DNA of 34,395 nt from Candidatus Eiseniibacteriota bacterium. GTDB lineage: Bacteria; Eisenbacteria; RBG-16-71-46. Below are positions 8,224 to 27,600 of the stretch, in pieces. The notes beneath the pieces were generated by a model. The model made no database searches. It saw only the letters and a list, made by a program, of their open reading frames with translations, and was not told the DNA's origin. The DNA lies in the NCBI GenBank assembly GCA_023249845.1, contig JAHFBW010000004.1, positions 1 to 34,395 on the forward strand, read 5' to 3'. Numbering within the stretch: the first letter of the stretch is position 1; each line of letters begins with the position of its first letter. The translations under genes were made by a program, and so were the position numbers.

Positions 8224-8799
8224 TTGGAAAGCGCCACGTCACGTCCCTGGACCGAGCCCGGCCAGGACCTCCAGCTGCTCGATGCCGCGCAGCGCGGCGA
8301 CCTCACGAGCCTGCGGCGGCTCATTCGCGTCCATCGCGCGCCTCTGTGGCGCGCCTGCTTCGCGATCACCCGCCACCAGGGTGAAGCCGAGATGCTGTTC
8401 CAGGAGACGCTCGCTCATGCCGCGCGGCAGCTTCGCGCCGCGCCCACCGGCCGGCCATTTCTCCCCTGGCTCGTGCGGCTCGCGCGCCAGGTGGACTCCG
8501 CCAAGCGGCGCGGGCGCGAGAGCCGGCCCTCGGTGGGGACGCGGCGCCCGAACGGGGAGCCGTGGGTGGCCGGATCGCGCGGCGCGCATTGGGTCGAGGA
8601 CGAGAAGTCGACGCTGCACGCGTTCGCACAGCTTCACACCGACGATCAATGGCTGCTCGTGCTGCGACTATTCGAGCGCCTGTCCTACGCCGACATCGCG
8701 AAAGTCACCAGCCTCTCGATGCCGCGCGTCATGAATCGCCTTGCACTGGCACGCGAGTACCTGGACCGCATGCACGAACTCGGGGACCGCGCGGCATGA
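8224..8799 (+). CDS. ECF-like RNA polymerase sigma factor (sigma module 1)
   Basis: Region 2-like LWRACFAITRHQGEAEMLFQETLAHAARQLRAAPTGRPFLPWLVRLARQVDSAKRRGRE; region 4-like LSYADIAKVTSLSMPRVMNRLALAREYL. TTG start preceded by GGGAGG. Confidence 0.8.
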   Translation: MESATSRPWTEPGQDLQLLDAAQRGDLTSLRRLIRVHRAPLWRACFAITRHQGEAEMLFQETLAHAARQLRAAPTGRPFLPWLVRLARQVDSAKRRGRESRPSVGTRRPNGEPWVAGSRGAHWVEDEKSTLHAFAQLHTDDQWLLVLRLFERLSYADIAKVTSLSMPRVMNRLALAREYLDRMHELGDRAA

Positions 8800-10031
8800 A
8801 CCATCTGACCGTTCAGCAACTGTCCGCATCACTTGATGGCGCCGTCACCGGGCCGTCGCTCGAACTGGTCGTGCGTCACCTCTCGGCGTGTCAGGAGTGC
8901 CGGGACCGCCAGGCGCGGCTCGCGCGGCACGACGACGCGCTGCGCCGGCTGCTGGCGCCCGAGCCGAGCGAGGCGTTCCTCGAGGACCTGGGTACCCGGG
9001 CCGAGGACATCGCTGTGGCGATCGCGCGCGGACTCCCGCCACCGACGATGATCACGTCGAAGCCGCTGGCGGACGACGAGGATCCCTATGCGCCGAGCGA
9101 ACCGCCGCCGCTCGACCGTCCCGAGCTGGGACGAGCCGGGCAGCTCGCGAACGAGGCGGGCTATGGCCGCATCGGGCTCAAGCCCACCGGGTCCACGCAA
9201 CCTCCGGAGGCCGATCCCGCCGAGGCGCAACGCTGGATGGAAGCTCTCGAGCGCGGCTCGCCGCCGGAGCCAAGCGGCGTCTCGATGCCGCTGCCCCAGC
9301 AGAAGGCAGCACCGGACGGTCCGGTGTTCGACATGCCAACGTGGATCAAGGACCGCACCGCGCGCTCTCAGCCGCCGTCCACGCCGCGCGACGCGCAGAA
9401 GTTGAAACTCGTGTTCGACCCTGCGCCCGATCCCGCACCGGAGTTCGCGACGGAAAGCTTGCACGAGGTGTACCGCCCGCTCGAGCCGGACGAACGGTAC
9501 GCTGCACCCGCGGCCGCGGCTCCGGCGTACGCGCTGCCCGAGTTGACGTCGCGCGCGAGCGCGTATGACGACCCCGCGGAGTATGCCGCCGCGCGAGCGC
9601 GCTCGACACCGGAGCCCGGGGTGTACGCGACGCGAGAGCAAGCGCAGTCCGCGATGCAGCGCCGGTATCGCGAGAGCAGGCGCGCGCGCGGAATGCGAGC
9701 ACACTGGTGGATCGCGGGTGGCAGCGTCGGTGGGCTAGGGCTTGTCATCCTGGCGCTCCAGCTCATGCCGGTCTCGCGCGATGGCCGGGATCAAGTGGCG
9801 TCGGCACGCGGTTTCCAGATGCCCCGTCTCGAATTCGTGCGGCACGACAGCAGCGCGGTCCCCGACCCGGCCACGCGCCCAAACGAGCTGCGCTCGGCCT
9901 CGACCCCCGCGCCGGTCGAGACCGTGGTGCCGCAGCCGCCGCGCGTCGTCCCGCCTGGGCCAGCGGATTCGAGCGCGCTCTCGCCCGAGGACACAACCGC
10001 GGATTCAGCGGGTGTGGAGAAGAGACCATGA
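8796..10031 (+). CDS. Transmembrane anti-sigma factor with N-terminal zinc finger (anti-sigma 1)
   Basis: RHLSACQECRDR HxxxCxxC motif; single TM HWWIAGGSVGGLGLVILALQLMPV; ATGA overlap with the sigma gene. Confidence 0.8.
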   Translation: MNHLTVQQLSASLDGAVTGPSLELVVRHLSACQECRDRQARLARHDDALRRLLAPEPSEAFLEDLGTRAEDIAVAIARGLPPPTMITSKPLADDEDPYAPSEPPPLDRPELGRAGQLANEAGYGRIGLKPTGSTQPPEADPAEAQRWMEALERGSPPEPSGVSMPLPQQKAAPDGPVFDMPTWIKDRTARSQPPSTPRDAQKLKLVFDPAPDPAPEFATESLHEVYRPLEPDERYAAPAAAAPAYALPELTSRASAYDDPAEYAAARARSTPEPGVYATREQAQSAMQRRYRESRRARGMRAHWWIAGGSVGGLGLVILALQLMPVSRDGRDQVASARGFQMPRLEFVRHDSSAVPDPATRPNELRSASTPAPVETVVPQPPRVVPPGPADSSALSPEDTTADSAGVEKRP

Positions 10032-10068
10032 GTCGCCAGCGGCAGCCGGCGACCTAGGAGGTGCGGTC

Positions 10069-10527
10069 ATGAAGGCTCTCGTGGTGAACGGGTCGGCGAC
10101 CGAGCGCGCCGTCTTCTCGGCGCAGCTCACCTGGCTGGGGCTGGAACCCGACACGGCGGCCAGCGCCGAGGAAGCGCTGGACCTACTGCAGCGCGGTCAC
10201 GATTTCGCGGTGGTGCTGCTGTCGTGGAGCCTGCAGGGCTCCGAGGGCCTCGAGCTGCTGCACCGGATCCGCGCCGAGGCTCGCTGGGCCGAGCTTCCCG
10301 TCGTGCTCATCACCGGAATGGACGACCTGTCGCGAATCGAGCAGGCGCACGACGCCGCGGTGAGCGAGTTCCTGCTGCAACCCTCCGACGCGCAGGCCCT
10401 GCTCGAGAAGCTGCTCATCCTGGGCGTGGATCCCGAGGCGCCAGACGCCACGCAGCCCAAGCCACGCCATCGGCCGGCACACCGCGCACGCCCGAACGAG
10501 GACCCCGAGGCGCGCCGGGCGGCCTGA
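10069..10527 (+). CDS. Degenerate CheY-like response-regulator receiver domain protein (pseudo-receiver)
   Basis: Gapless alignment to the cheY product at 18154 over about 127 aa; phosphorylation-site residues replaced (DD->NG, D52->S, K104->Q). Good SD (TAGGAGG) and intact ORF. Confidence 0.85.
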   Translation: MKALVVNGSATERAVFSAQLTWLGLEPDTAASAEEALDLLQRGHDFAVVLLSWSLQGSEGLELLHRIRAEARWAELPVVLITGMDDLSRIEQAHDAAVSEFLLQPSDAQALLEKLLILGVDPEAPDATQPKPRHRPAHRARPNEDPEARRAA

Positions 10528-10607
10528 GCCTCGTGCCCGGGGTCGGGCTCGAGATCGGCCGTGAACCCGGGATCGTTCTTCTCAAGTCCGGCAAGGAAAC
10601 CTCACGC

Positions 10608-11150
10608 GTGCACGATCCCCTGCGGCGGCCATGGACGGAACCGGGTCGAGACCCGGAGCTCGCGCACGCCGCGCAGCGCGGCGATCTTGCCGAGCTGTTC
10701 ACGCTGTTGCGCGAGTATCGCCGTGAGCTGTGGCGCGTGTGTTTCGCGCTGACGCTCGACCGTCGGCGCGCTGAAAGGCTCATGCACGACACGCTATTGC
10801 GTGCCGCGAAGAACCTGCGTTCGGTCCCGAACGGGGCGGCGTTTCTGCCGTGGCTCGTGCGCCTCGCCGCCCACCTCGCGGCCGCGTCATCGCGCCGCAC
10901 GGAGCCGGACCCCGCGCGCGCCGGTGACATTTCGGAGTCGGCACTCGGAACCCGCGTGAGCGAGGCCGAGTCGCGTGCACTCCGGGCGTTCTCCCGGTTC
11001 AATGAGGCCGAGCGGCTACTGCTGGCACTCGCCACGGTGGAGCGCCTGCCGTATGCGGAGCTCGCCGCCGTGAGCAAGCGCGAGCCCACCGCGGTCCTGC
11101 ACGAGCTCTCGATGCTGCGCGTGCGCCTCGCCGAGGAGGACGCCGCGTGA
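10608..11150 (+). CDS. ECF-like sigma factor, divergent paralog (sigma module 2)
   Basis: In-frame GTG at 10608 in the 10224 ORF; N-terminus RPWTEPGRDPELAHAAQRGDLAEL parallels RPWTEPGQDLQLLDAAQRGDLTSL of the 8224 product; FLPWLVRLAA shared. Confidence 0.75.
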   Translation: MHDPLRRPWTEPGRDPELAHAAQRGDLAELFTLLREYRRELWRVCFALTLDRRRAERLMHDTLLRAAKNLRSVPNGAAFLPWLVRLAAHLAAASSRRTEPDPARAGDISESALGTRVSEAESRALRAFSRFNEAERLLLALATVERLPYAELAAVSKREPTAVLHELSMLRVRLAEEDAA

Positions 11151-12793
11151 GGCACCTGAGCGTGCAGCAGCTCTCCGCGTCACTGGATGGCGCGCTCGCC
11201 GGCGTCTCCCGAGAACTCGTGATGCGCCACCTCGCGGCTTGCGCGAGCTGCCGCGAGCGGCACGCCGGCTGGAGCGCGAACGACGACGCGCTCCGACGCG
11301 TGTTGTCGTGGGAGCCTGACGAACGCATGCTCGAGGAATGGTCGTCGCGCGTGGAGCTCACGCTCACCGCGGAACGCAAGGGTCTGCCGGCGCCCGCGTT
11401 CTCGGAACTGCAGCACCCGGTGATCGCGCCCGCGCCGGAGCCCGCCTCGGATCGGCTCGATCACGTGGTGCGCAGCGTCCGCCAGACTCGGCGCGGGGAT
11501 GCCGCCAACGAACCGGGGCCGCGCGAGACGGTTCCGTCGGCGCTGCCCGCAACGCTCCCGATCGAAAGGCCGGAAACGACACCAGCGGACCCGGTCGGGG
11601 CACCCAGCGAACTCCCGGTCGAGCCCGAATCCCCGCCGATCGAGCCGGTGCCGGTCATGTCCGCGCTCGGGCCGATCGCGGCGGCCGTGGCGCGCCCCCC
11701 CGGGCCAAGCCCGCGCGTGACAGAACCCGACTCTCCGATTCCGGCGCCCGCGCCACGTGACGCGAATGTGCCGCCGCCACGCCGCGCGTTGACGCCGCCG
11801 CACCGCCCCGAGGTCGCACCCTTGCCTTCGGTCGCGCGCTCACTTGAATCAGAGCGTGTCGTACGTGTCGGCCGTTCCAGGCGCCGTGAGGATCGCACGT
11901 TGCGCGGCTGGCTCGCCGCCGCTGGGGTCCTGCTCCTGGTGCTCGCCGGGTCTCCGCTCGTGCCCGAGGTCATTCGAATCCCACTGCCCGACCGTTGGCG
12001 CTGGCGACTGCCGCGTGTGGAGTTCGTGCGCCGAGACGGCGCCCGGCCGGACGCCGCGTCGGTTCGCGATGCGGGAACGAGTCTCGCGTCACGTACCACG
12101 ATCGAGCCCCAACTCGTCCCGAAGGTGCCGATCCCGGCCCCGGCCGAGAGCGTCGCCACGTCGGCCCAGCTGCCGGTCCCTGCGTCCGCAGCCGCCGACT
12201 CCGCGACGCCCTCGGAACCGGTCGCGGAAGCCGCGACCAGCACCGAGAAACCCTCCGAGCCGGGTGAAACCACAACGCGCCCGACGAAGCCACAACTGGA
12301 ACCCGCACGCACGGCACCCGAACGACCGCGCCCCGCGCATGCCACGAAGACGATGCGCACGGCGCCCCGGTACGTCGGCCCGCCCCTACCTCGCGAGCCA
12401 GAGCCCGACGTGACCTACGCCAGCGAGAGTCCGGGCACCATCGTCCCCACGCGCGTGACCACGACGGTCAAGCTTTCGCCCGAACCGACGCGCGTCCCTG
12501 TGCCCGCGCCGGGGCCGCCGACCGCCGCCGAGCCTGAGTCGGAAGAGGACTGGCCGCTCCTCTGCGGCACCGTTCTCGATGCCGTCGGCGCACCGGTGGA
12601 GGGCGCGCGCGTCGTGCTCGCCGCCAACGCCTTGAGCGTTCGCACCGATCGCCGAGGCCGGTTCTGCGTTGCCTGCCCGCCCGGTTCGCAGACCGTGCGC
12701 GTCGAGGCTACCGGCCGCGAACCGGTCTCGCGCTCGGTCGAACTCACGACGGGGATGACCGAGATTCGATTCTCGCTCGCAACCGGTCGTTGA
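11147..12793 (+). CDS. Transmembrane zinc-finger anti-sigma factor with C-terminal carboxypeptidase-regulatory-like domain (anti-sigma 2)
   Basis: LSVQQLSASLDGALAG...RHLAACASCRER parallels the 8796 product; TM LRGWLAAAGVLLLVLAGSPLV; C-terminal LCGTVLDAVGAPVEGARVVLAANALSVRTDRRGRFCVACPPGSQTVRVEATG. Confidence 0.8.
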   Translation: MRHLSVQQLSASLDGALAGVSRELVMRHLAACASCRERHAGWSANDDALRRVLSWEPDERMLEEWSSRVELTLTAERKGLPAPAFSELQHPVIAPAPEPASDRLDHVVRSVRQTRRGDAANEPGPRETVPSALPATLPIERPETTPADPVGAPSELPVEPESPPIEPVPVMSALGPIAAAVARPPGPSPRVTEPDSPIPAPAPRDANVPPPRRALTPPHRPEVAPLPSVARSLESERVVRVGRSRRREDRTLRGWLAAAGVLLLVLAGSPLVPEVIRIPLPDRWRWRLPRVEFVRRDGARPDAASVRDAGTSLASRTTIEPQLVPKVPIPAPAESVATSAQLPVPASAAADSATPSEPVAEAATSTEKPSEPGETTTRPTKPQLEPARTAPERPRPAHATKTMRTAPRYVGPPLPREPEPDVTYASESPGTIVPTRVTTTVKLSPEPTRVPVPAPGPPTAAEPESEEDWPLLCGTVLDAVGAPVEGARVVLAANALSVRTDRRGRFCVACPPGSQTVRVEATGREPVSRSVELTTGMTEIRFSLATGR

Positions 12794-12871
12794 GATCTCG
12801 CGCGGAACCAAGGCTCAAGCCCACCGTCACTTGGAGCGATAACGCAAGGGGTACGGGTCCTCTCCCCTCAA

Positions 12872-15085
12872 GTGGCCGCGCCCTCCGCCCGGGACTCCCT
12901 GGCAAGCCGGCCCCGACCCCGTCGTGGCCTCGAAGGGATCACGTTGGAACCATTGGACGATTCCATCCTCGACGAGTTCCTCGTCGACTCGCACGAAGGG
13001 CTCGACCGACTCGACCGTGACCTGGTCATGCTCGAGCACGATCCCGCGTCGGGAGAAGCACTCGCGAGCGCGTTTCGCTCGCTGCACACGATCAAGGGCA
13101 CGTGCTCGTTCTTCGGCTTCCGCCGGCTCGAGCGCGTGGCGCACGCGGGCGAGCACGTGCTGTCTCGGCTACGCTCGAATCAGCTCGCGCTCACGCCCGA
13201 GATCGCGGGCGGTCTGCTCGCCGTCGTCGACAGTGTTCGCGGCATCCTCGCGGGCATCGAATCCACTCGCCAGGAGCCCGCGGGCGACGACTCGGCCGTG
13301 TTGGCGCAGCTCGCGCCATGGCTTCCCGCGGAGGGCGCCGCGCGCGCCAGGCCGGCCGCCACGAGCCGGGCGAAGGCTGTCGTGCCGAAGCCTGCGCCGG
13401 CTCCGTCCGCGGCTGTTGGAGCGGTGGTGGAGGGTGGGCCGGCGACACCCGGCGCCACGACGGCGCTCCAGCAGCAGCACCTGCGCGTGGACGTGCGTCG
13501 ACTGGACCAGCTCATGGACCTGGTCGGCGAACTGGTGCTGGCACGCAATCAGCTCGTCCAGACCGTCGCGGTCGGAGGCGCCACGCCCGTGGGACGCGCG
13601 GCCCAACGACTGGATCAGGTCACGACGCGGCTCCAGGACGAGGTCATGCGCACGCGCATGCAGCCGGTGTCCGCGCTGTGGGCCCGCTTGCCGCGGCTCG
13701 TGCGCGACGTGGCCACGGCATGCGGCAAGCCCGTGCGGCTGGAGCTCGAGGGCAACGCCACCGAGCTGGACCGCACGCTGGTCGAGGCGCTCAAGGACCC
13801 GCTCACACACTTGCTGCGCAACGCCGTGGATCACGGCATCGAGGACGCGGCCACGCGCGAGCGCGCGGGCAAGCCGGCCGAGGGCGTGCTGCGCCTGCGC
13901 GCGTTCGAGGAGGGCGGCAGCGTTCACCTGTTGCTCTCGGACGACGGCGGCGGCATGTCGCTCGAGCGGATCCGCGCGCAGGCAATCGCACGCGGGCTCG
14001 CGGAGCCGGCCGACGTGGATCGGCTCACGGAGGAACAGTGGCTGCAGTTCGTGTTCCGCCCGGGGTTTTCCACGGCGAAGAACGTCACGAACATCTCCGG
14101 GCGCGGCGTCGGCCTGGATGCGGCGCGCTCGGCCATCGAGAGCGTGGGCGGCGGCCTCGAGGTGTCTTCCGTCTCGGGCCAGGGGACCACGTTCCACGTT
14201 CGCATCCCGCTCACGCTCGCGATCATCCCGGCGCTCACGGTGGAGCAGGCAGGCGAGTGCTACGTGATTCCGCAGGCGCACCTGCTCGAACTCGCGCGCC
14301 TGGGTGTCGGCGGCGCGAGGGTGGAGTGGGCGCACGACCGGCCACGATTCCGGTTGCGCGGCGAGCTACTGCCCGTCGTGCTGCTCGGCCGGCTGTTCGA
14401 TTCACCCGGAGCGCCTGGCAGCTCCGACGGCCGCCACCTGCTCGTGCTGAGTGCGGAGGGCCAGCGGTTCGGTCTGGTCGTGGACCAGGTGCGCGACACC
14501 GAGGAGATCGTCGTCAAGCCGCTCAGGTCCGGCTTGCGCGAGATCGGCCCATTCGCCGGCGCCACGGTGCGCGGCGACGGGCGCGTGGCGTTGATCCTCG
14601 ACGTGCTGGCACTCGCGGCCCACGCCGGCCTGCGCCGCGGCGTGACCGCGACGCCCGCGGCGAGCGCCACCCCCACCGCTCCTGCCCGGCGCGCAGTGCC
14701 GCTGTTGCTCGTGCGCTCGCGAGGCGGCCAGCCGGCCGTGGTCCCCGTGGCCGAGGTCGAGCGCATCGTGGAGTTCGAATCGAGCGCGTTCGAACGTTTG
14801 GACGAACGCCCCGCGGTGCGCTTCGAAGGCACGGTGTTGCCGGTCACGACGCTCGCCGGCGGAGCGACACGCCGCCGGCTCGATGCGTTCGAGGCCGAGC
14901 GCGCGTGGCCCGTGCTCATCCACGAGCGCGACGGGCAACGTTGGGGATTCCTGGTGGACACGGTCCTGGACATCGTGGACTGGCCGGGTGCTCCGGACGC
15001 CGAACGTCTCGTCGTCCGCGACCACGTCACCGACTACGTCTCGCTCGCCCGCGCCGGCGCGGACGCGTTCGCGGAAGCCGCATGA
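12872..15085 (+). CDS. cheA: Chemotaxis histidine kinase CheA with two C-terminal CheW-like domains
   Basis: Hpt LHTIKGTCSFFGF; P3 LDQLMDLVGELVLARNQL; P4 HLLRNAVDHGIE, DDGGGM, GRGVGLD; P5 CheW-like domain followed by a second CheW-like segment. Start codon uncertain (GTG 12872 or TTG 12944). Confidence 0.95.
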   Translation: MAAPSARDSLASRPRPRRGLEGITLEPLDDSILDEFLVDSHEGLDRLDRDLVMLEHDPASGEALASAFRSLHTIKGTCSFFGFRRLERVAHAGEHVLSRLRSNQLALTPEIAGGLLAVVDSVRGILAGIESTRQEPAGDDSAVLAQLAPWLPAEGAARARPAATSRAKAVVPKPAPAPSAAVGAVVEGGPATPGATTALQQQHLRVDVRRLDQLMDLVGELVLARNQLVQTVAVGGATPVGRAAQRLDQVTTRLQDEVMRTRMQPVSALWARLPRLVRDVATACGKPVRLELEGNATELDRTLVEALKDPLTHLLRNAVDHGIEDAATRERAGKPAEGVLRLRAFEEGGSVHLLLSDDGGGMSLERIRAQAIARGLAEPADVDRLTEEQWLQFVFRPGFSTAKNVTNISGRGVGLDAARSAIESVGGGLEVSSVSGQGTTFHVRIPLTLAIIPALTVEQAGECYVIPQAHLLELARLGVGGARVEWAHDRPRFRLRGELLPVVLLGRLFDSPGAPGSSDGRHLLVLSAEGQRFGLVVDQVRDTEEIVVKPLRSGLREIGPFAGATVRGDGRVALILDVLALAAHAGLRRGVTATPAASATPTAPARRAVPLLLVRSRGGQPAVVPVAEVERIVEFESSAFERLDERPAVRFEGTVLPVTTLAGGATRRRLDAFEAERAWPVLIHERDGQRWGFLVDTVLDIVDWPGAPDAERLVVRDHVTDYVSLARAGADAFAEAA

Positions 15086-15582
15086 GCCGCATGGCCAGCG
15101 CCGTCGACACGGGTTGGTGCACGTTCCAGCTCGCGGACGGGCTCTATGGCGTCGAGCTGTCGCGCGTGAACGAGGTGCTTCGCCCGCAGCCACTGGCGAG
15201 GGTGCCGCTGGCACCTCCGGCCGTGGCAGGTCTGCTGAACCTGCGCGGGCACATTGTGCCCGCGGTCGATCTGCGCACGCTGTTCGGACTCAAGCCGCGT
15301 TCCGCCGGCGCCTTGGTCGTCGTGCATGCCGACGATGGCCCCGTGGCGCTGGTCGTGGACGCGATCGGCGACGTGCAGCGCCGCGCCATGCTGCCGCCCG
15401 GCGCGCTCGAGGCTGACACGCATGCCGCACACGATTCCCTGTGCGCCCAAACCATTCCTTTGCCCGAGTCACTGCTCGTCGTGATCGACCTGGACCGGGT
15501 ACTGCAACAGGCGTTCGACCGGCCGGAGCCTGCGGGCATCGCGCGTTCGAGAGCCTGGGCTGCGACTGACTTCGGAGAGTGA
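15082..15582 (+). CDS. cheW: Chemotaxis coupling protein CheW
   Basis: [63 protein letters not shown] overlap with cheA. Confidence 0.93.
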
Positions 15583-15584
15583 AC

Positions 15585-17252
15585 ATGAAATGGACCGTTC
15601 GTACCCGACTCGTCGGCCTGAGTCTCATGGGGCTGGCGCTGCTGTTCGCCGTCGCCGCGACCGCGGGCTGGAGCCTGCGCCAGGCCGCCGTCTCGGGCCG
15701 CGTCATGCGTCATCACGTGCAGGCGGTGCGCGACCATCTCGAGATGGATATGATGCACGACGCCCTGCGCGCGGACGTGCTCGCCGTCGTCGCCGCGAAG
15801 GACGCGCCCTCTCGAGACGAGGCGGTCGCGACGCTCCGCCAGCATGTCGCCCGCCTCGAGCGGTATGCGGCGCGGTCGCCCGCTTCCGCGCTCGATCCGC
15901 AGACTCGCGCCGTGACCGGGGAGATCCGGGAAGAGTTCCGCCGTTTCGCGGAGTCTTCGCTGCGGATCGCGGAACGCGCCGAGGCCGGGGACCACGCGAG
16001 CCTCGAACGCGAGTTACCGGTGTTCCTCGCCCAGTGGGCACGTTTGGAGCCTCTCGCCGAAGGCGTGAGTGATCGCCTCGAAGCCGGCAGTTCCACGGCC
16101 GCCGCCGCCATGGACCGCGCCGCGGAAGCTGGAACGCAGTGGACGCTCGCCATCGCCGCGCTCGCAATCCTTGCATCGCTGTTCGCCGCGCATCGCGTCC
16201 GCCAGAGCATCCTGTTGCCGCTCGACGAGTCCGTGCGCGTCATGGACGCGGTGGCCGGCGGGGACCTCGACGCCCGCGTGTCCCCGGGGCGGGACGACGA
16301 ACTCGGGAAACTCGGCGACGCCGTGAACCGCGGACTCGAGAGCGTCGGCGCCGCCCTGTCGCGTATCGCCGAGAACGCGGTCGCCGTCGGCAACGCGTCC
16401 GAGGAGCTCGCCTCGGTGAGCAACGAACTCCAGTCGAGCGCCAAGCAGACCTCGGAGCAGACCGCGCTCGCGTCGGGCGCGAGCGAGGAAACGAACACCT
16501 CCGTGCGACTCGTGGCTGCGTCCGCACAGCAGGTGGGCTCGGGGATCCGCGACGTCGCGCACAACGCGAACGAGGCCGCCGCGGTCGCCGCCACCGCCGT
16601 TCGCGTCGCGGGCGAGGCCAACGAGACCATCCGGCAGCTGGGTGAGAGCAGCGAGCAGATCGACAATGTCATCCGCGTCATCCACTCGATCGCCGAGCAG
16701 ACGAACATCCTCGCGCTGAACGCCGAGATCGAGGCCGCGCGCGCCGGCGAGGCGGGCAAGGGCTTCGCGGTGGTGGCGAACGAGGTCAAGGAGTTGGCCA
16801 AGGAGACGGCCCGCGCCACCGAGGACATCTCGAGCCGCGTCAGCGCGATCCGCGCCGACAGTCGTGCCGCCGTGAACGCCATCTCGGAGATCGGCACCAT
16901 CATCCGGCAGATCAGCTCGACACAATCCGCCATCGCCGCCTCGGTCCAGCAACAGAGCGCGGCCACGGCTGAGATCACGCGCAACATGGGCGAAGCGGCG
17001 CGCGGCACCGACGAGATCGCCGCCACGATCAACTCGGTCGCCCGGGCGACCGAGAGCAACAGTGCGGCCGCGAGAGAGACACAGCGCGCCGCGAGCGAGC
17101 TCGCCATGATGGCCACCGAGTTGCAGCGCACGGTGAGCCAGTTCCGCTTCGGCCTGCGGTCGCACGCGTCCCTGGGCCGGCCCGCCGCGGGCGTCGTGAA
17201 CCCGTTCAGCCGCGTGCACGAGCGCGACGGCCAGGACGCGAAGGCCGCGTGA
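15585..17252 (+). CDS. Methyl-accepting chemotaxis protein (TM-periplasmic-TM-HAMP-signalling)
   Basis: TM1 [23 protein letters not shown]2 [21 protein letters not shown], tip [44 protein letters not shown]. Confidence 0.95.
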
Positions 17253-18157
17253 TGCGCGCCCCCCGCCCCGCCGACGCCACGGTCGCTCCGACGGATCCCC
17301 GCCCGTCCGCGGTGACCGGCCTGCGCCGCCACGCCGATGAACTCTCCCGCGCCTCCGAGCAGCTCTCGGGAAACGGCTGGGAGTGCGACAACGAGGCCGA
17401 GCGCACGGCGCGCCAGGCCGAAGGGGTGTCCGAAGCGGCCGAGCAGACTGCCGGTAACGTGGGAAGCGTGGCCGTGGCCGTGGAGCAGATGGGCGCCTCC
17501 ATCCACGAGATCTCGCGCAACACCTCGGAAGCGGCGGCGATCGCGGCCGCTGCCGAGAAGGAAGCCCACTCCGCCGCCGAGCGCATTCAGCGCCTGGGCC
17601 AGGTGAGCGAGCGGGCGGGTGGTGTCGTGCGCGCGATCTCGACCATCGCGCGGCGCACACACCTGCTGGCGTTGAACGCCGCCATCGAATCTGCTCGGGC
17701 CGGCGAGGCGGGCCGGGCCTTCCAGGTCGTGGCGCACGAGGTTCGCTCGCTCGCCCACCAGACTTCCACCGCGGCCGCCGAGGTCACGCACACGCTCGAA
17801 GGGGTGCGCACGGACAGCACCCAGGCCATCGAGGCGATCACGCAGATCCGCGGCACCATCCACCACATCGCGCTCATCTCCCGCACCATCGCGGAGGCCG
17901 TGGCGCAACAGCTGCGCACAGCCGACGAGATCAGCCGCAACTTGAACCAGGCCGCGAGTGGCGTGGTCACGATCAGTGAGGACAGCGCGGCCGTCGCCGA
18001 GGGCGTGCAGCGCATTCGCGTCCACGCGCACTCCGCGCAGGAGATCGCTTCGAACCTCGTGCGCCTGTCCACCACGCTTGGCCGCATCGCCGGGCGGCTC
18101 GAGGGACCCGAACCCGCCGTACCCCCGACACCATCGACCGTGGGAGGAATCTCGTGA
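17252..18157 (+). CDS. Soluble MCP-like signalling-domain protein with atypical tip
   Basis: No TM; tip ISTIARRTHLLALNAAIESARAGEAGRAFQVVAHEVRSLAHQTS. Confidence 0.88.
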   Translation: MRAPRPADATVAPTDPRPSAVTGLRRHADELSRASEQLSGNGWECDNEAERTARQAEGVSEAAEQTAGNVGSVAVAVEQMGASIHEISRNTSEAAAIAAAAEKEAHSAAERIQRLGQVSERAGGVVRAISTIARRTHLLALNAAIESARAGEAGRAFQVVAHEVRSLAHQTSTAAAEVTHTLEGVRTDSTQAIEAITQIRGTIHHIALISRTIAEAVAQQLRTADEISRNLNQAASGVVTISEDSAAVAEGVQRIRVHAHSAQEIASNLVRLSTTLGRIAGRLEGPEPAVPPTPSTVGGIS

Positions 18158-18537
18158 AAGCACTCGTGGTGGATGATTCGCGCGCGATGCGCCGCATCAT
18201 CGCGAAGTACCTGGTCGAGCTGGGCTTCGAGGTGCACGAGGCGGGCTCCGGCCTCGAGGCGCTCGTCCAAGCGCCCAAGATCCCCGGGCTGTCGTTCATC
18301 CTGCTTGATTGGAACATGCCCGAGATGGACGGCCGCACGCTACTCGAACGGCTGCGGGCCGATCCGGACTTCGCCGACATCCCGGTGATGATGGTGACCA
18401 CCGAGAGCGAGATGGAGCAGGTTGAGGTGGCGCTGCAGGCCGGGGCGAGCGAGTACCTGATGAAGCCGTTCGATCGCGCCGCGTTGCGCGAGAAGCTGCT
18501 GTTGCTCGGATTCGATCCCGAGGAAAAGGCCGCCTGA
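18154..18537 (+). CDS. cheY: Chemotaxis response regulator CheY
   Basis: MKALVVDDSRAMRRIIAKYL...FILLDWNMPEMDG...MMVTTE...EYLMKPFD; all phosphorylation residues intact. Confidence 0.93.
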   Translation: MKALVVDDSRAMRRIIAKYLVELGFEVHEAGSGLEALVQAPKIPGLSFILLDWNMPEMDGRTLLERLRADPDFADIPVMMVTTESEMEQVEVALQAGASEYLMKPFDRAALREKLLLLGFDPEEKAA

Positions 18538-18550
18538 GGGCGCCGCCCGC

Positions 18551-19660
18551 ATGAGCGAGATCCGGGTCCTCCTCGTGGATGACAGCGTCGCGGTACGCCG
18601 CGCGCTGGGCGACGCACTCATGGCCGAGCCCGGCTTCCACGTGTGCGGCTCGGCGCCGAACGGCCTGCTCGGGCTCGAGCTGCTCGCGCGCTCGCGGCCC
18701 GACGTGATCGTCTTGGACCTCGAGATGCCGGTGCTCGACGGCCTCGAGTTCCTGTCGCGCATGCGCTCGGAGCACCCCAAGCTGCCGGTGGTGGTGTTCA
18801 GCGGGGCGGTGGGCCACGGCAACGAAGCGACGCTCGAGGCGATGTGGCGCGGCGCGAGTGACTACGTGCTGAAGCCGCAGGGGCTGTCCTCCGAGGAGCT
18901 GCTCCCGTTCCTGCGCCGCGAACTGTTCCCGCGTCTGCGCGCGCTCGCGGGCCCCGCGCTGGCGCCGGAGGCCTCGCCTCCTCGTCCGCTACGGCTGCCG
19001 AGCGTCGTCGCGGCACAGGTCCGGCCCACGCCCGTGGCGGCACGGCCGTCCGGACGCGAGCCCACGCCGAGCATCGTCGTCGTGGGTGCTTCCACCGGCG
19101 GGCCGCGCGCTCTCGCGGCGGTGCTCAGCGAGCTCGTGCCGGACTTCCCGCTCCCCATCGTGGTGGTGCAGCACATGCCGGTCGAGATGACGGCGTTCTT
19201 CGCGGACGGTCTCGCGCGCAACTGCCCGCTTCCCGTGCACCTCGCGGGGGCCGGCCAGACCGTGGCCCCCGGCACCGTGTGGTTGGCGCCGGGCGGCACG
19301 CATCTCGTCCTGGAGAGCGAGGGCGCGCGCGCGCGCTTCCGGCTCGACAACGGCCCCGAGGAGAACGGCTGCCGCCCGTCGGTGGATCCGCTGTTCCGCT
19401 CCGCCACGCGGGTGTTCGGCTCCGGCGTGCTCGCCGTGGTGCTCACGGGCATGGGACAGGACGGCCTGGCCGGCGCGCGCGCCGTGCACGCCGCACACGG
19501 TCGCGTGATCGTGCAGGATGAAGCTTCGAGTATCGTCTGGGGGATGCCTGGCGCCATCGCGCGCGCTGGCGTCGCGCACGCCGTGCTACCGCTCACGCAA
19601 CTCGGCTCCGAAATCCTCTCGCGCACGCGGTCTCGCGGCGCTCGCGACCGGGCGGCGTGA
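18551..19660 (+). CDS. cheB: Protein-glutamate methylesterase CheB
   Basis: Receiver VDDS...VLDLEMPVLDGLEFL, catalytic domain GASTGGPRAL, VVQHMP, VVLTGMGQDG. Confidence 0.96.
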   Translation: MSEIRVLLVDDSVAVRRALGDALMAEPGFHVCGSAPNGLLGLELLARSRPDVIVLDLEMPVLDGLEFLSRMRSEHPKLPVVVFSGAVGHGNEATLEAMWRGASDYVLKPQGLSSEELLPFLRRELFPRLRALAGPALAPEASPPRPLRLPSVVAAQVRPTPVAARPSGREPTPSIVVVGASTGGPRALAAVLSELVPDFPLPIVVVQHMPVEMTAFFADGLARNCPLPVHLAGAGQTVAPGTVWLAPGGTHLVLESEGARARFRLDNGPEENGCRPSVDPLFRSATRVFGSGVLAVVLTGMGQDGLAGARAVHAAHGRVIVQDEASSIVWGMPGAIARAGVAHAVLPLTQLGSEILSRTRSRGARDRAA

Positions 19661-20520
19661 GCCTCGGCCCGGCGTCCGATCGCCGCCTGAACGCGCTCAC
19701 GGAGGCGGATCATACCTATCTCCGCCGCCTGCTCCACGAGCGCACGGGTGTCGTGCTGGACCAGAGCCGCGACGCGTTCGTCGAGATGCGATTGGGCTCG
19801 CTCGCGACCGAGACGGGTATCGGCTCGCTGCCCGAGGTCATGGAAGCGCTCCGCACCGAGGAGAGCTGGGGCATCCTGCACCGGCTCGTCGTGGAGTCGC
19901 TCGCCATCTCCGAGACGTCGTGGTTTCGCGACGCCCACCTGTGGGAGGAGCTGCGCGAGACCATCCTGCCCGAGCTGCTCGAACGTCGCTCTGGAGTGCG
20001 CCGGCTCAACCTGTGGAGCGCTGCCTGCGCGAGCGGACAGGAGCCCTACAGCCTCGCGATGCTTCTGCAAGAACAGGGCCCGTTGCTCGCCGGGTGGAAC
20101 GTGGAGCTGCTCGCCACGGACTTCTCGCAGACCATCCTCAAGCGCGCCCGCGGCGGCATGTTCAGCCAGATCGAGATGAACCGCGGCCTGCCGGTGACGA
20201 ACCTCGTACGGCATTTCCGGAAAACGACCGACGCTTGGGAGTTGAAGCCCGAGGTGCGTTCCCGTGTCGAGTTCCGCGAGCTGAATCTCGCGATTCCCTG
20301 GCCGGTGCTGCCGCAGATGGACCTCGTGCTCATGCGCAACGTGCTGCTGTACTTCGAACCGGCGCTGCGGCAGCGCGTGCTGCGCCGGCTCGCTCAGACG
20401 CTGCATCCAGACGGCATCCTGGTGCTCGGCTCGGGCGAGACCACGCTCACCATGGACGACACATTCGAAGGCGTTCCCCTCGAGCGCACGGTGGTGTACC
20501 GGCGCCGAGGCCGCCGATAA
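19657..20520 (+). CDS. cheR: Chemotaxis methyltransferase CheR
   Basis: SETSWFRDAHLWEELRETILPEL, LNLWSAACASGQEPYSLAMLL, LLATDFSQTILKRARGG, LVLMRNVLLYF; GTGA overlap with cheB. Confidence 0.95.
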   Translation: MSLGPASDRRLNALTEADHTYLRRLLHERTGVVLDQSRDAFVEMRLGSLATETGIGSLPEVMEALRTEESWGILHRLVVESLAISETSWFRDAHLWEELRETILPELLERRSGVRRLNLWSAACASGQEPYSLAMLLQEQGPLLAGWNVELLATDFSQTILKRARGGMFSQIEMNRGLPVTNLVRHFRKTTDAWELKPEVRSRVEFRELNLAIPWPVLPQMDLVLMRNVLLYFEPALRQRVLRRLAQTLHPDGILVLGSGETTLTMDDTFEGVPLERTVVYRRRGRR

Positions 20521-20543
20521 CGATTGGAAGAGAGGAGCGAGAC

Positions 20544-21020
20544 ATGAGCGCCAAGATCATCCCCATCCAGGAATGGCTGAAGACATTTCGAAGCGCGGCG
20601 GACGAGCTGGCGCGCACGTCGCTGCGATTCGATCCCAAGTCGGTCCCGGCGCGCGGCGAGGAGTCTAGCGAGCCGGGTGCTTACATCGCCATCCTCTCCC
20701 CGCACAACGCCGTGCACCTCGGGATCTCGGCCTCTCCTCCGGAGTGCCGCGCGCTGGCGCGCGCGCTGCTCGGCCTGCGCCAGGACGAGGTGCTCTCGGA
20801 CCGCGACGTCGTGGACGGCCTCTCCGAGGTCATGAACATCCTCGCCGGCAAGGTGAAGGCGAGCATGGCGGGCCGAGACGGCCAGCTGCACCTGGGGCTT
20901 CCCATGTACGTGAAGGATCCGATCCGCGCCGGCAAGGAGTCCGAGGCCGTCTCCGCCGAGGCGAAGCTCGGCCCCGTCGATTGCACGCTGCGCGTGTACC
21001 GGAGGCAGCGGGCGGCATGA
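20544..21020 (+). CDS. cheX: CheX-like chemotaxis phosphatase
   Basis: VVDGLSEVMNILAGKVKASMAG with the ExxN motif of CheX/CheC-type phosphatases; SD AGAGGAG; end of the che operon. Confidence 0.75.
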   Translation: MSAKIIPIQEWLKTFRSAADELARTSLRFDPKSVPARGEESSEPGAYIAILSPHNAVHLGISASPPECRALARALLGLRQDEVLSDRDVVDGLSEVMNILAGKVKASMAGRDGQLHLGLPMYVKDPIRAGKESEAVSAEAKLGPVDCTLRVYRRQRAA

Positions 21021-21095: not shown

Positions 21096-21264
21096 TCCGC
21101 CATCCCGGGACAGGCCTCTGGCCGCATGCCCGTGATGGATCCGCCCTTCGCTCGCGCTCCATGGACGGAACCTCGCCCGGTCGTGCGTTCACGGTCCCCA
21201 TCCACCGTGCGCCGCTGCCGCGTTGCCATCGTCCGCCCTTGCGGACCGACAGGGAGGTCCTGCG

Positions 21265-21768
21265 ATGCACCGCTCCATCCGTCTCGCGCTTGCCCTCGCA
21301 TTCACGGGAACCGCACTCGCGGCGTCCGTCGTGTTCGCGGCGGGCGGCGTCACCGTGGAACTCACCGCGAATCGCGTCACGAAGGCGCAGGGCCGTGAAC
21401 TGCTGGCCTCCGCCGACCAGGCGCGGCCGGGCGAAGTGCTCGAGTACCAGGCGCGCTACAAGAACGACGGCACGGGTGACGCCAGGGGACTCGCGGCCAC
21501 GCTGCCGATCCCGCGCGGCACGCAGTACGTGCCGGGCACCGCGTCGCCGAAGCGCGTCGAGGCGAGCCTCGATGGCCGCACGTTCGCGCCGGTTCCGCTG
21601 ACGCGCCGCGTGCGTACCGCCGACGGACGCACCGTCGTGCGCGAGGTGCCGGTGTCCGAGTACCGCGCGCTCCGCTGGGCGCTCGGCACGCTGCCCGCTC
21701 GCCAGAGCCGGCTCGTGACCGCGCGCGTGAAGGTCGAGCCCACGCAGGTCGCTGTCGAGACGCAGTGA
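21265..21768 (+). CDS. Secreted short DUF11-like domain protein
   Basis: ATG 21265 after GGGAGG; signal peptide MHRSIRLALALAFTGTALAASVVFAAG; GEVLEYQARYKNDGTGDARGLAATLPIPRGTQYVPGTA is DUF11-like. Confidence 0.75.
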   Translation: MHRSIRLALALAFTGTALAASVVFAAGGVTVELTANRVTKAQGRELLASADQARPGEVLEYQARYKNDGTGDARGLAATLPIPRGTQYVPGTASPKRVEASLDGRTFAPVPLTRRVRTADGRTVVREVPVSEYRALRWALGTLPARQSRLVTARVKVEPTQVAVETQ

Positions 21769-21877
21769 GGTTTCGCAGTCCCGTCATCAACCACTTCCCG
21801 GACGTGGCGCGGGACCCATCCGCCCGCCGCGCACACCGAACGGGGACGCACCGGACCCATCCACCGGAGTGTTTCCA

Positions 21878-24499
21878 ATGATCTCCCCACATATCGCTGG
21901 TGTCGTCCGCCAGCGGGTCAAGTCGCCGCTCGGCTGGGCGCGCACCGCTCTCGCGGTGGGTGTGTTCGCCGGGCTCGCGGGGCACGCGTTCGCCGCCCCA
22001 CCCGCTGGCACGTCAATCGGTAACCAGGCCACGGCCACATACCAGGACGCGGCTTCCAACAGCTACACCGTGTCGTCGAACTCGGTGAACACGATCGTGC
22101 AGCAGGTCGCCAGCCTGACACTCACCGCGAACGGCCTCCGCGTCGCGGCGCCCGGCGGCCAGGCCGTGTTCCCGCACGTGCTCACGAACACGGGCAATGG
22201 CACGGACTCGTTCTCGCTCTCCGGAGCAAACCAGGGTGGTGATGACTTCGACCTCACCGGGCTCGTGCTCTACGTGGACGCGGACGGGAACGGCGTGCCC
22301 GACAACTTCACGCCCGTCACCACGACCGGTCCGCTCGCCGCGGGCGCGTCCTACCGCTTCGTCGCGGTGGGCTCGGTACCCGGGACGGCGCTTTCCGGCA
22401 ATGTCGGCATGTTGTCCGTGAACGCGGCCAGCGCGTTCGACGCGGGTCAGACGGCGTCGAACACCGACCAAGTCACGGTGTCCACGAACGCCGTGGTGAA
22501 CGTGACCAAGGCCGTGAGCGCCGCAAACGGCGCATCGCCGAGCGGCCCGTACACCTACACCCTCACGTATACGAACTCGGGGAACGCGACCGCCGCCGGC
22601 GTGCGCCTCACCGACCTCGTGCCTGCGGGCATGACGTACGTGGCCGGCAGCGGCCGCTGGAGCGCCACCGGCGCGACGGTGCTGTCCGACGCGGACTCGT
22701 CCGACACGCACACGGCGGGCGCTAACTCGATCCGCTACGACTGGAATGCCGCGACGCCGGGTGCGGTCACGGCCATCGTTACGCAAGTGCCGCCCGGCCA
22801 GTCCGGAAGCGTCACCTTCGACGTCACGGTGAACGCGGGCCTGGCGCCGCAAACGATCGGCAACACCGCGCGCTTCGCCTACAACGACGGCGCGGCCGAC
22901 GTCGGCCCGTTCTTCACGAACACGGCGCCGTTCACCGTGGACCAGTCCGCCTCGGCCACGTTCATCGGTCAGGTGGTGCCGAGCGCGCTGCAGGGCGGCA
23001 CGGTGTCGTTCACGAACGTCCTCACGAACACCGGCAACGGCGCCGACGTCTTCGACATCTCGACCGCCGGCAGCACGTTCCCGGGCGGCTCCATCGTGCA
23101 GCTCTTCCAGAGCGACGGCGTCACGCCGCTCACGGACTCGAACGGTAACCTCACGCCGGACGTGGGCCCGCTCGCTCCCGGCGCCAGCTACAACGTCATC
23201 CTGCGCGTCACGTTGCCGGCGGGCGCCACCGGCGGCCCATACCAGGTCTCGAAGACCGCCACGTCGGCCACCGATCCGCTCGTGGCGCCGACCGCGCTCG
23301 ACGTCCTCACCTCGATCACCGCGAACACGGTGGATGTCACGAACAACGCCGCGCTTCCCGGCGGCTCGGGCGCCGGCACGGGTCCGGAAGGTGCGTTCGT
23401 GGACCGTCAGGTCGTGGCTTCGGGCAACACCGCCCGCTTCACGCTGTACGTCAACAACACCAGCGCGCAGCCCGACGCGTATGACCTCGCGGCCAGCACC
23501 GTGGGCACGTTCGCGTCGCTCACGCTGCCGGCGGGATGGACGGTGACGTTCCGCGACGGCTCGAACGCCGTCATCACCAGCACCGGGCCGATCGCGGCCG
23601 GTGGCAACATGCTCGTCTACGCCGACGTGGGCGTGGCCGCGGGCTTCGCGAGCGGTGACGTGGAGATCTACTTCCGCGCGCACTCTCCGGTGTCCCTCAC
23701 CCAGGACGTCATCCATGACCAGGTGGGCGTCACCGCGTCACGCGCGCTGGCCCTGACACCGAACAACACGGCGCAGGTCCTGCCGGGTGGTTACGTGGTC
23801 TACACGCACACGCTGGCCAACAACGGCAACGTGCTCGAGGGCGACGGCGTTGGCAGCACCGTGTCGTTCGCCACAGCCGAGACACAGGTGTCGTGGAACT
23901 CGGCGCTCTACTGGGACACGAACGGCAGCGGGCTGTTCGACGTGGGCGACCTGCCCCTGACGACGCTGTCGTCCATGGGTGGCCTCGCCCCCGGCGCCAC
24001 GTTGCGCGTCTTCGTGCAGGTGTTCGCCCCAGCGGGTTCGCCGCTCGGCACGGTCAACACCACGACCATCACGGCCAGCACGGTGAACGTGGGCTTCGTG
24101 GATCCGGCGCCGGGCGCAGGTCTCGCACAGGACGCCACAACGGTCATCAACGGCCAGGTCACCATCGTCAAGACGCAGGCGCTGGACGCGGCTTGCGATG
24201 GCACCGAGGACGGCGCGTTCACCACGCTGGACCTCACCACCGGAGCGGTGCCGAACGCGTGCATCCGCTACGAGATCACGGTCACGAACATCGGCACGAC
24301 GCCGGTGTCGTCACTGGTGATCAACGACGCGACGCCGGCCTACACCGTGTCGTCGAACGCCGCCTCGGCGTTCAGCTCGCAGGGCTCGATCGTCGTGCCC
24401 GCGGACGGTGCCACCGGCGCGATCACCGCCACGCTGGGCGCGCTGGCGCCCGGAGCCTCGGTGACGATCCGGTTCAGCGTTCGCATCGAGTTCCCATGA
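21878..24499 (+). CDS. Secreted DUF11-repeat protein, about 873 aa
   Basis: Signal peptide ending GHAFAAPP; repeated DUF11-like units (VLTNTGNGTDSFSL, YTYTLTYTNSGNATAAGVRLTDLVPAGMTYVAGSG, VLTNTGNGADVFDI). Confidence 0.85.
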   Translation: MISPHIAGVVRQRVKSPLGWARTALAVGVFAGLAGHAFAAPPAGTSIGNQATATYQDAASNSYTVSSNSVNTIVQQVASLTLTANGLRVAAPGGQAVFPHVLTNTGNGTDSFSLSGANQGGDDFDLTGLVLYVDADGNGVPDNFTPVTTTGPLAAGASYRFVAVGSVPGTALSGNVGMLSVNAASAFDAGQTASNTDQVTVSTNAVVNVTKAVSAANGASPSGPYTYTLTYTNSGNATAAGVRLTDLVPAGMTYVAGSGRWSATGATVLSDADSSDTHTAGANSIRYDWNAATPGAVTAIVTQVPPGQSGSVTFDVTVNAGLAPQTIGNTARFAYNDGAADVGPFFTNTAPFTVDQSASATFIGQVVPSALQGGTVSFTNVLTNTGNGADVFDISTAGSTFPGGSIVQLFQSDGVTPLTDSNGNLTPDVGPLAPGASYNVILRVTLPAGATGGPYQVSKTATSATDPLVAPTALDVLTSITANTVDVTNNAALPGGSGAGTGPEGAFVDRQVVASGNTARFTLYVNNTSAQPDAYDLAASTVGTFASLTLPAGWTVTFRDGSNAVITSTGPIAAGGNMLVYADVGVAAGFASGDVEIYFRAHSPVSLTQDVIHDQVGVTASRALALTPNNTAQVLPGGYVVYTHTLANNGNVLEGDGVGSTVSFATAETQVSWNSALYWDTNGSGLFDVGDLPLTTLSSMGGLAPGATLRVFVQVFAPAGSPLGTVNTTTITASTVNVGFVDPAPGAGLAQDATTVINGQVTIVKTQALDAACDGTEDGAFTTLDLTTGAVPNACIRYEITVTNIGTTPVSSLVINDATPAYTVSSNAASAFSSQGSIVVPADGATGAITATLGALAPGASVTIRFSVRIEFP

Positions 24500-24546
24500 T
24501 CTGACATCCGTGCGGCGGGGAGCAGGACGTTCCTCGTCGCCTGCCG

Positions 24547-24566
24547 GGGCCCCCTCACGGGGGCCC
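24547..24566. terminator. GC-rich hairpin GGGCCCCC-tcac-GGGGGCCC
   Basis: Perfect 8-bp stem, 4-nt loop, 48 nt after the upstream stop; followed by TCTCCC rather than a U-tract. Confidence 0.5.
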
Positions 24567-24645
24567 TCTCCCAACGCTTCGCGACGCCGTCACTCCGGAA
24601 CTGAACTCCGGAGGGCGGCGCTCGCGGGGCTTCCGGGGTTCTCGC

Positions 24646-27600
24646 ATGTCCCGTGGCATCACCTGGCTCGAGCGAGTTCTTCGCGTTCACGCGCGCGCGC
24701 GTGTGTGCGCGTTTATTATGCTGCTCACCAGCGCGGCCCTTCCCGGGGTCGCCGCCGCCGCGGCCACCGCCGCGCCCGCCGCCGGCACGCGCATCGACAA
24801 TGTCGCGCGCATCACCGCGGTGGACGCGTCCGGCTCGCCGTTCTCGGGACCGAGCAACGTCGTGCGCGCCGTCGTGCAGGGCCAGGAACGCGTGACGCTC
24901 AGTCCCGACCGTGGCGGCCTCGGTGCTCCCGGCACGAGCGTGACGCTGGCGCACCGACTCGTGAACACGGGCAACCTCGCCAGCGACTTTCGGCTCGACG
25001 CCACGAACCTGGCGCTGGACGGCTTCGACGCGGCGAGCTTCTCGCTGCTCCACGATCGCGACCGGAACGGTGTTGCCGGCGCCGGCGACACGCCGGTCGC
25101 GAACGGTGGCGTGTTGACACTCGCCGCCGGCGACTCCGCCGACGTGCTGCTCACGCTCGGCGTTCCCGCGGTCGCGCCGCTCGGCGCGCTGGCGCTCGTG
25201 CGGCTCGCGGCGACAGGGCTCGCCCAAGGTGCGTGGGCGGCGGTCACGGACACGCTCCGCACGCCCACCGTGGGCTCGCTCCCGGCGCTCACGTTCTGCG
25301 ACGCGCCGGACTACCAGCGCATCACCCGGCTGGCAGCACTCGCGGCACCGCTCTTCGTGCAGGCTCTGGCGCGGGGCTGCGACCTGGACCCAGCTCGCAT
25401 CGAGACCGTACGCCTGACGCTCCGCTCGCGTGCGACGGGGGACCACGAGAACTTCGACGCCGTGGAGACCGCGCCGCATTCCGGCCTGTTCCGGCTCGTG
25501 CCGGGCGCCCCCACGCTCACCGGGACAGGGACGTCTGCGGTGGGCGACGGCGTGCTCGCGATGACGCGCGGCGATCTCATCACCGCGGAGCTCCCGGGCT
25601 GCGGTAGCGTGCTCACGACCGCGTCGGTGTGGGTGGACCCGCGCTGCCTCGTGTACGAGTCACAGACCGACGCGCCCGTTGGCGGTGTGCGCGTGCGCCT
25701 CGTGGACGTGAGCGGCGCCGGCAACGGCGGCGTGCCGGGTGGCCTCGCGAGCGTGTTCGCCGGCGACGGTGTCACGCCGAGCCCCGCCGACTTGGTCACC
25801 GACGCGCTCGGCCGCTACTCGTTCCCGCTCGTGCCGCGCAGCACGTACCGGCTCGAGGTGTCCCCGCCCGAGCCGTGGCGATTCCCGTCGCGCATGGGCG
25901 CGGCCGCACTGCCGCTCGGGCATCTCACCGACGTCGCCGCGTCCTACGGCGGTGTGTTCACGGCGGCGGACTCGCTCGCGCCGATCGCGGTGGACGTGCC
26001 GGTGGACGCACTGGGGCCCATCGCGCTGTTCGTGGAACACACGGCGTCGCGGCCCGAGGTCGAGTGGGGCGACGAGCTCGAGTATCGCGTACGCATCGCC
26101 AACCGGTCGGACTCGGCACTCACCACGGTGACGCTAGGCGAGACGCTGCCGAGCGGGTTCGCCTACCTGCGCGGCTCGGCGCGCGGAGCGATCGCGATCA
26201 CGGGCTCGAGCGCCCGCCCGACCGGGCTGCCCGCGGTGGACGCCACGAACGCCGGTCCCGCGCTCTCGTTCGGCATCGGCGCATTGGCACCGCACGAGAC
26301 GTACGAGTTCGTGCTCCGCGTGCGCGTGCGCGCCGGTGCGCCCACCGGCGAGGCGCTGGCGGTGGCGCAGGCCACGGCGCGCGCCGCGGTCACGGACGTC
26401 GCGTCCAACGCGGCGCCGGCGCGCGTGCGCGTCCGTGGCGACGTGTTCGGCGACGAGGGCGCCATCGTGGGCAGCGTCTCGGTGCGCACGGGTGAGAGCG
26501 GGGATCCGGCCGGCCTGGCCGGCGTCCGGCTCTTCCTCGACGACGGCACGTGGGCGGTGACCGACGCGCATGGCCGGTTCAGCTTCACCGGCGTCACGCC
26601 CAGGACGCACGCGATCAAGCTCGATCGCACCACGCTGCCGCCGCGCGCGCGGCCGGTGGCGATCGACCGCCGTGATGCGGGCACGCCCGGCCTCCGGTTC
26701 GTGGACCTGACGCGCGGCGAGCTGGTGCACGCCGAGTTCGTCGTGACGGGTGACACGACGACGATGCGCGAGGCGCAGGATCGTCGCATGGCGGCCGCGA
26801 TGCGCGACGAAGCCTCTCGCGCCCTGGCACGCGGCGTCACGAGCCCCGAGCAGCGGCTGCGGAGCGGCGATCCGCGCGCCCTCCCGGCGTCGGCGATCGC
26901 CACCGGCGAGCGCGAGTCGTCCGAGGGACGGCCGACGCCGCTCGCGAGCTCCGCGACCTCGCCCGCGGCCGTGTTCGCCTCGCTCGAGCAATTGCTCCCC
27001 ACGCTCGACCCCGAGTTGGGCTTCGTGGCCCTCTCGGATCTCGACACCGTCGCCACCACGCAGCTCGCCGTACGCGTCAAGGGTCGGCTCGGCATGACGT
27101 TCTCGCTGCGTGTGAACGGCGAGCGCGTACCCGAGTCGCGGGTGGGACGGCGCGTCACCGCGCCGCGCGCCGGTCTCGAGGCGTGGGAATACGTGGGCGT
27201 GACGCTACGCCCGGGCAGAAACCAGCTCGAACTGTCCACACCGCACGCGCGCGGCCGCGTCGTGGTGCGCGTCGTGGTGCCGGCGTCGCTCGGCAACTTG
27301 GTGCTCTCGGGGCCCAGGCTCGCGTCCGCCGACGGCCGGAGCGCGGCGCTCCTGACGCTCGCCGCCACGGATTCCGCCGGCGTGCCCGTGGGCGTGCGCA
27401 CGCTGGTGACGCTCGAGAGTTCACTCGGTCGGCTCGCGGTGCGCGATCTGGATCCGGCGCAGGCTGGCGTGCAGGTGGCGGTGGAAGGCGGGATCGTCGA
27501 GGTGCCGCTCGTGGCCCCGGCCTCGCCGGGACGCGCGCGCATCACCGCCAGGTCGGGGGCGATCCAGACCGCCGCGCTCGTGGAGTTCGTGCCGGAGATG

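Follow-up and report, generated by a model that had tools for sequence, protein, structure and literature searches.

A stand-alone CheY-like pseudo-receiver in the chemosensory gene cluster of an Eisenbacteria genome

Gene content of the chemosensory cluster

The window, by which we mean the whole analyzed stretch of 34,395 nt, contains a chemosensory gene cluster preceded by two sigma/anti-sigma pairs, and between these pairs lies an open reading frame for a receiver-like protein. From sigma factor 1 through cheX all genes are located on a single strand, in the following order:

8224–8799, + strand: ECF-like sigma factor 1; regions 2 and 4 recognized, ortholog in the same-genus genome G013 93% identical
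8796–10031, + strand: zf-HC2 (zinc-finger) anti-sigma 1, without CarboxypepD_reg (domain search)
10056–10063, + strand: Shine–Dalgarno sequence AGGAGGTG, 5 nt ahead of the pseudo-receiver ATG (read from the sequence)
10069–10527, + strand: pseudo-receiver (aspartate-less CheY paralog), 152 aa
10608–11150, + strand: sigma factor 2, a derived copy whose start was inferred from its alignment to sigma 1
11147–12793, + strand: zf-HC2 anti-sigma 2 with C-terminal CarboxypepD_reg (domain search)
12872–15085, + strand: CheA with Hpt, H-kinase_dim, HATPase_c and two CheW-like stretches (domain search)
15082–15582, + strand: CheW (homologs in syntenic order)
15579–17252, + strand: methyl-accepting chemotaxis protein 1 (domain search)
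17249–18157, + strand: MCP-like protein 2, short (domain search)
18154–18537, + strand: intact CheY (D7, D8, D52, T82, Y101, K104), the parent family of the paralog (alignment and domain search)
18551–19660, + strand: CheB (homologs in syntenic order)
19657–20520, + strand: CheR (homologs in syntenic order)
20544–21020, + strand: CheX, CheY phosphatase family (domain search)

No match to a P2 domain was found in CheA. The pseudo-receiver gene is separated by 37 bp from anti-sigma 1 upstream and by 80 bp from the likely sigma 2 start (10608) downstream, and no terminators above chance were found flanking it. Judged from the sequence, co-transcription with the neighboring genes as part of the same operon is plausible. 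The distance to the intact cheY is 7.6 kb. Beyond cheX, three genes (21223–30093) have homologs that are also located downstream of cheX in a genome of the same family (G003).

Phosphorylation site, fold and selection

An earlier, sequence-only reading of this DNA had described an intact reading frame with a strong Shine–Dalgarno sequence and a basic, proline-rich tail; we confirmed an open frame of 152 aa with the motif 5 nt from the ATG, and the tail (PKPRHRPAHRARPNEDPEARRAA) had been quoted correctly. The protein divides into a receiver (residues about 1–120) and a low-confidence, R/P-rich tail (about 121–152). Its GC content at the three codon positions (0.77/0.42/0.90) shows the pattern of a coding gene and is similar to that of cheY (0.70/0.37/0.88). 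The product matches the Pfam family Response_reg (PF00072) with E = 5.3e-13 and 49.5 bits (cut-off 30.2), and its top match in its own genome, self excluded, is the CheY encoded at 18154 (E = 5e-23; second-best 1e-11). In the ungapped alignment with this CheY (18154–18537) we counted 50 identities in 127 positions (39%), exactly the figure that had been estimated by hand. Given this identity, the Response_reg match and the position of CheY as nearest relative in the genome, the similarity is not due to chance.

Relative to CheY we observed the substitutions D7N, D8G, D52S, Y101F and K104Q, with W53, T82 and P105 unchanged. Each residue call of the sequence-only reading (N7, G8, S52 and Q104, with T82 and W53 kept) agrees with the alignment; two further changes, Pro56 to Q in the β3–α3 loop and F106 to S, had escaped it. 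Four of the five conserved catalytic positions are lost. In a receiver that lacks the metal pair, the phosphoacceptor and the lysine, phosphotransfer to Asp is chemically implausible. With D7, D8, D52 and K104 all substituted and the loop at the active site remodeled, the protein is expected neither to bind metal nor to take up phosphate on an Asp, and from receiver biochemistry we infer that the phosphotransfer chemistry has been lost. The product lacks what marks a phosphorylatable CheY (Asp phosphoacceptor, acidic pair and Lys); it is recognized by PF00072 without the Asp, the DD pair or the K, and has a predicted (βα)5 fold. By sequence and predicted fold it is a stand-alone pseudo-receiver, a class already known.

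An AlphaFold model based on a three-row alignment showed the (βα)5 fold with a pLDDT of about 90 over most of residues 1–120, values of 73–83 in 81–110 and low confidence in the tail. Among solved structures, Spo0F and CheY have the nearest folds; the matches also include the FrzS receiver. Among 63 residues invariant in six CheYs, 30 are kept in the pseudo-receiver, and they are distributed unevenly: 9 of 10 are retained in α5 and the tail, compared to 3 of 17 in the β3–α3 active-site loop, β4 and α4 (Fisher p about 0.005 for each, with the groups of elements picked after the pattern had been seen). The retention of α5 could reflect packing and not binding.

Codon models gave an omega of 0.18–0.20 for the pseudo-receiver branch and of 0.07 for the CheY branches. 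Omega = 1 was rejected on the pseudo-receiver branch (p about 0.0015), equality with CheY was not rejected (p 0.18–0.32), and after removal of the active site, its loop and α4 the omega was 0.25–0.28 (p 0.02–0.04); these values are model-dependent and synonymous sites are saturated. For this reason neutral drift was also simulated in 400 runs, starting from the CheY of G003 and continuing to an identity equal to that of the pseudo-receiver. The profile score of the pseudo-receiver is 101.4, compared to a neutral maximum of 70.3 and a median of 45 (reached in 0 of 400 runs), and 12% of the 400 runs remained open across 123 codons. Drift is therefore an unlikely explanation, and the fold has been constrained for most of the history of the gene, which does not in itself prove a present-day function.

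These results bear on the idea that the gene is a duplicate in slow decay, largely or wholly without function, its frame still open by chance and through recent constraint. The omega nominally above that of CheY (0.2 versus 0.07, not significant), the share of neutral runs that stay open, the observation of the pseudo-receiver in a single genome and the likewise derived state of the adjacent sigma 2 would fit such a decay. However, its profile score lies far above every neutral simulation, omega = 1 is rejected on its branch, the gene has a strong Shine–Dalgarno sequence and a coding GC pattern, and its losses are clustered and not spread, so that we regard decay as fairly unlikely.

Relatives, origin and the sigma/anti-sigma neighborhood

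We compared 47 genomes of the phylum Eisenbacteria (G000 being the genome under study). The syntenic operon was found in five further genomes, namely one of the same genus (G013), one of the same family (G003) and three of another family (G038, G039 and G044), with one CheY in each; a CheY search of the family recovered it in only 3 of 20 genomes. The available sequence of G003, G038, G039 and G044 contains no extra CheY copy and one sigma plus one anti-sigma gene upstream of cheA, where the contig of G038 begins within its sigma gene and the sequence further upstream lies outside view. From the single pair and the single CheY in these four genomes, the ancestral layout was probably sigma, anti-sigma, che genes. 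In the assembly of G013, the nearest relative and the only one that shares the duplicated sigma modules, the interval of the pseudo-receiver and sigma 2 falls into a 1.7 kb gap between contigs C96 and C147; the linker of anti-sigma 1 is found on one contig and that of anti-sigma 2 on another, which indicates that the pair is doubled in the genus. A single G013 anti-sigma gene split by a contig break was rejected, because the two contigs bear distinct linkers. Searches for orthologs of the pseudo-receiver at each level from its own genome through family, order and class to the phylum (47 genomes) returned CheY and other receivers only, seven distant receivers were the only matches in wider genome contigs, and no relatives were found in viral contigs.

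The C-terminal ending LGxDP is present in 6 of 6 operon CheYs, appears as LGVDP in the pseudo-receiver and is found in 0 of 5 other receiver proteins aligned. The one-to-one ortholog of the operon CheYs is the protein encoded at 18154–18537 (98% identical to the CheY of G013), and 10069–10527 is the second copy. In its sequence relationships the pseudo-receiver is a paralog of its own operon's CheY. The shared ending, the drift simulation and the branch omega of about 0.2 all back the earlier proposal of a CheY paralog that has lost phosphotransfer and kept its fold. Concerning the age of the duplication, the codon model preferred, by 8.6 log units, a split that precedes G003, and a recent split was not rejected by the protein AU test (p 0.32), with a long pseudo-receiver branch.

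In two families of the phylum, the syntenic operons have an ECF-like sigma gene and a zinc-finger anti-sigma gene ahead of cheA (8224–21020 in the window; L024, L060, L061 and L062). Pairs of the same kind, with no che genes within the stretch fetched, were observed in G005 (C141, L051) and G001 (C33, L049). The CarboxypepD_reg domain of anti-sigma 2, absent from anti-sigma 1, is covered by the alignment with the sole anti-sigma of G003. Sigma 2 has no Pfam region 4 match and has lost the RRPNGE linker via a deletion of about 8 residues; its branch omega is 0.27 versus 0.10, with omega = 1 weakly rejected. A shared promoter sequence was sought upstream of sigma 1 and sigma 2 and none was found. 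The derived state of sigma 2 leaves room for co-specialization with the pseudo-receiver, or for joint decay of both.

The sequence-only reading had suggested a sigma or anti-sigma target for the pseudo-receiver. On such a view the protein would bind one of the two sigma factors or an anti-sigma, tuning transcription without phosphorylation and linking the chemosensory pathway to the adjoining sigma/anti-sigma modules. The pseudo-receiver does sit between two sigma/anti-sigma pairs, sigma 2 could have co-specialized with it, and such a pair precedes cheA in distant families too. However, the argument is a positional one only: G003, G038, G039 and G044 retain the pair upstream of cheA with no second, pseudo-CheY copy in their available sequence, and we found nothing in the pseudo-receiver sequence that would mark a known type of sigma or anti-sigma binder. 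The neighborhood therefore predates the pseudo-receiver or is independent of it, and we consider binding to these factors unlikely. What the gene order does point to is a link between the chemosensory system and the sigma factor that is conserved in two families of the phylum.

Possible mode of action and comparison with known systems

We tentatively favor, with a probability of about 0.45, a pseudo-receiver derived from CheY that would keep the fold without the phosphate chemistry and dock on a CheY partner as a constitutive competitor or co-partner. The operon's own CheY would have been duplicated to give a stand-alone pseudo-receiver; locked in one state, this protein would act by protein contact and not by phosphorylation, and it would dock through its α5 face and C-terminus onto a partner that CheY uses as well, with CheA, CheX or another output as candidates. 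A shared CheY partner appears most likely because the α5 face and LGxDP are kept and the α4 switch face is rebuilt. No match to FliM or FliN was found in G000 (87% complete), G013 or G003 (99% complete), and several PilT homologs are present in all three. The output of the che operon is therefore probably not flagellar, and on this gene content the flagellar switch would be an unlikely target.

Alternatively, the pseudo-receiver might be a constitutively active output that is controlled by its amount alone, the level being set by the sigma modules, and a model of this type has been proposed for CmrT (PMC12632262). The threonine and the aromatic residue of Y–T coupling are both kept (T82, F101), a combination that is found in only about 47% of pseudo-receivers (PMC12632262). 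However, the α4 output face of CheY has been replaced, and we consider control by amount distinctly unlikely. Very unlikely in our view is a combined role in which the phosphate-blind CheY copy would form the fixed arm of an ECF-sigma-wired chemosensory system, bridging CheY partners and a specialized sigma/anti-sigma copy.

About 6% of bacterial receivers are pseudo-receivers, aspartate-less receivers (ALRs) account for about 4% of receivers overall, and the mode of action of bacterial pseudo-receivers is an open question (PMC12632262). As it stands, 10069–10527 is a single instance of a class that comprises several percent of receivers; with a single-domain pseudo-receiver, an intact parent-type CheY and all likely partners in one cluster, it would offer a compact test of competition for CheY sites. 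It resembles the ALR domains described before (PMC12632262, PMC4395418) in its PF00072 match without Asp and other catalytic residues, in the replacement by Ser, which is frequent (15% of ALRs; PMC4395418), and in its stand-alone form, which is also known (PMC4395418), but differs from them in adjoining a complete che operon that includes an intact parent-type CheY. Also among the fold matches is the receiver of FrzS from Myxococcus xanthus (2gkg, 2i6f; PMC1974792), a pseudo-receiver with a CheY fold that exerts its effect on type IV pilus motility through protein contact; however, FrzS is a longer polar protein that binds SgmX via α3–β4–α4, whereas in 10069–10527 β4–α4 is changed and α5 is kept. 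CmrT of the CmrRST system in C. difficile (PMC12632262) is likewise a pseudo-receiver encoded together with a normal kinase and receiver, but it is an OmpR-family regulator and the protein studied here has no effector domain. With CheY itself the pseudo-receiver shares the fold, 39% identity and the C-terminal LGxDP of its own operon's CheYs, and it differs from CheY in the absence of the metal site, the phosphoacceptor and the catalytic Lys.
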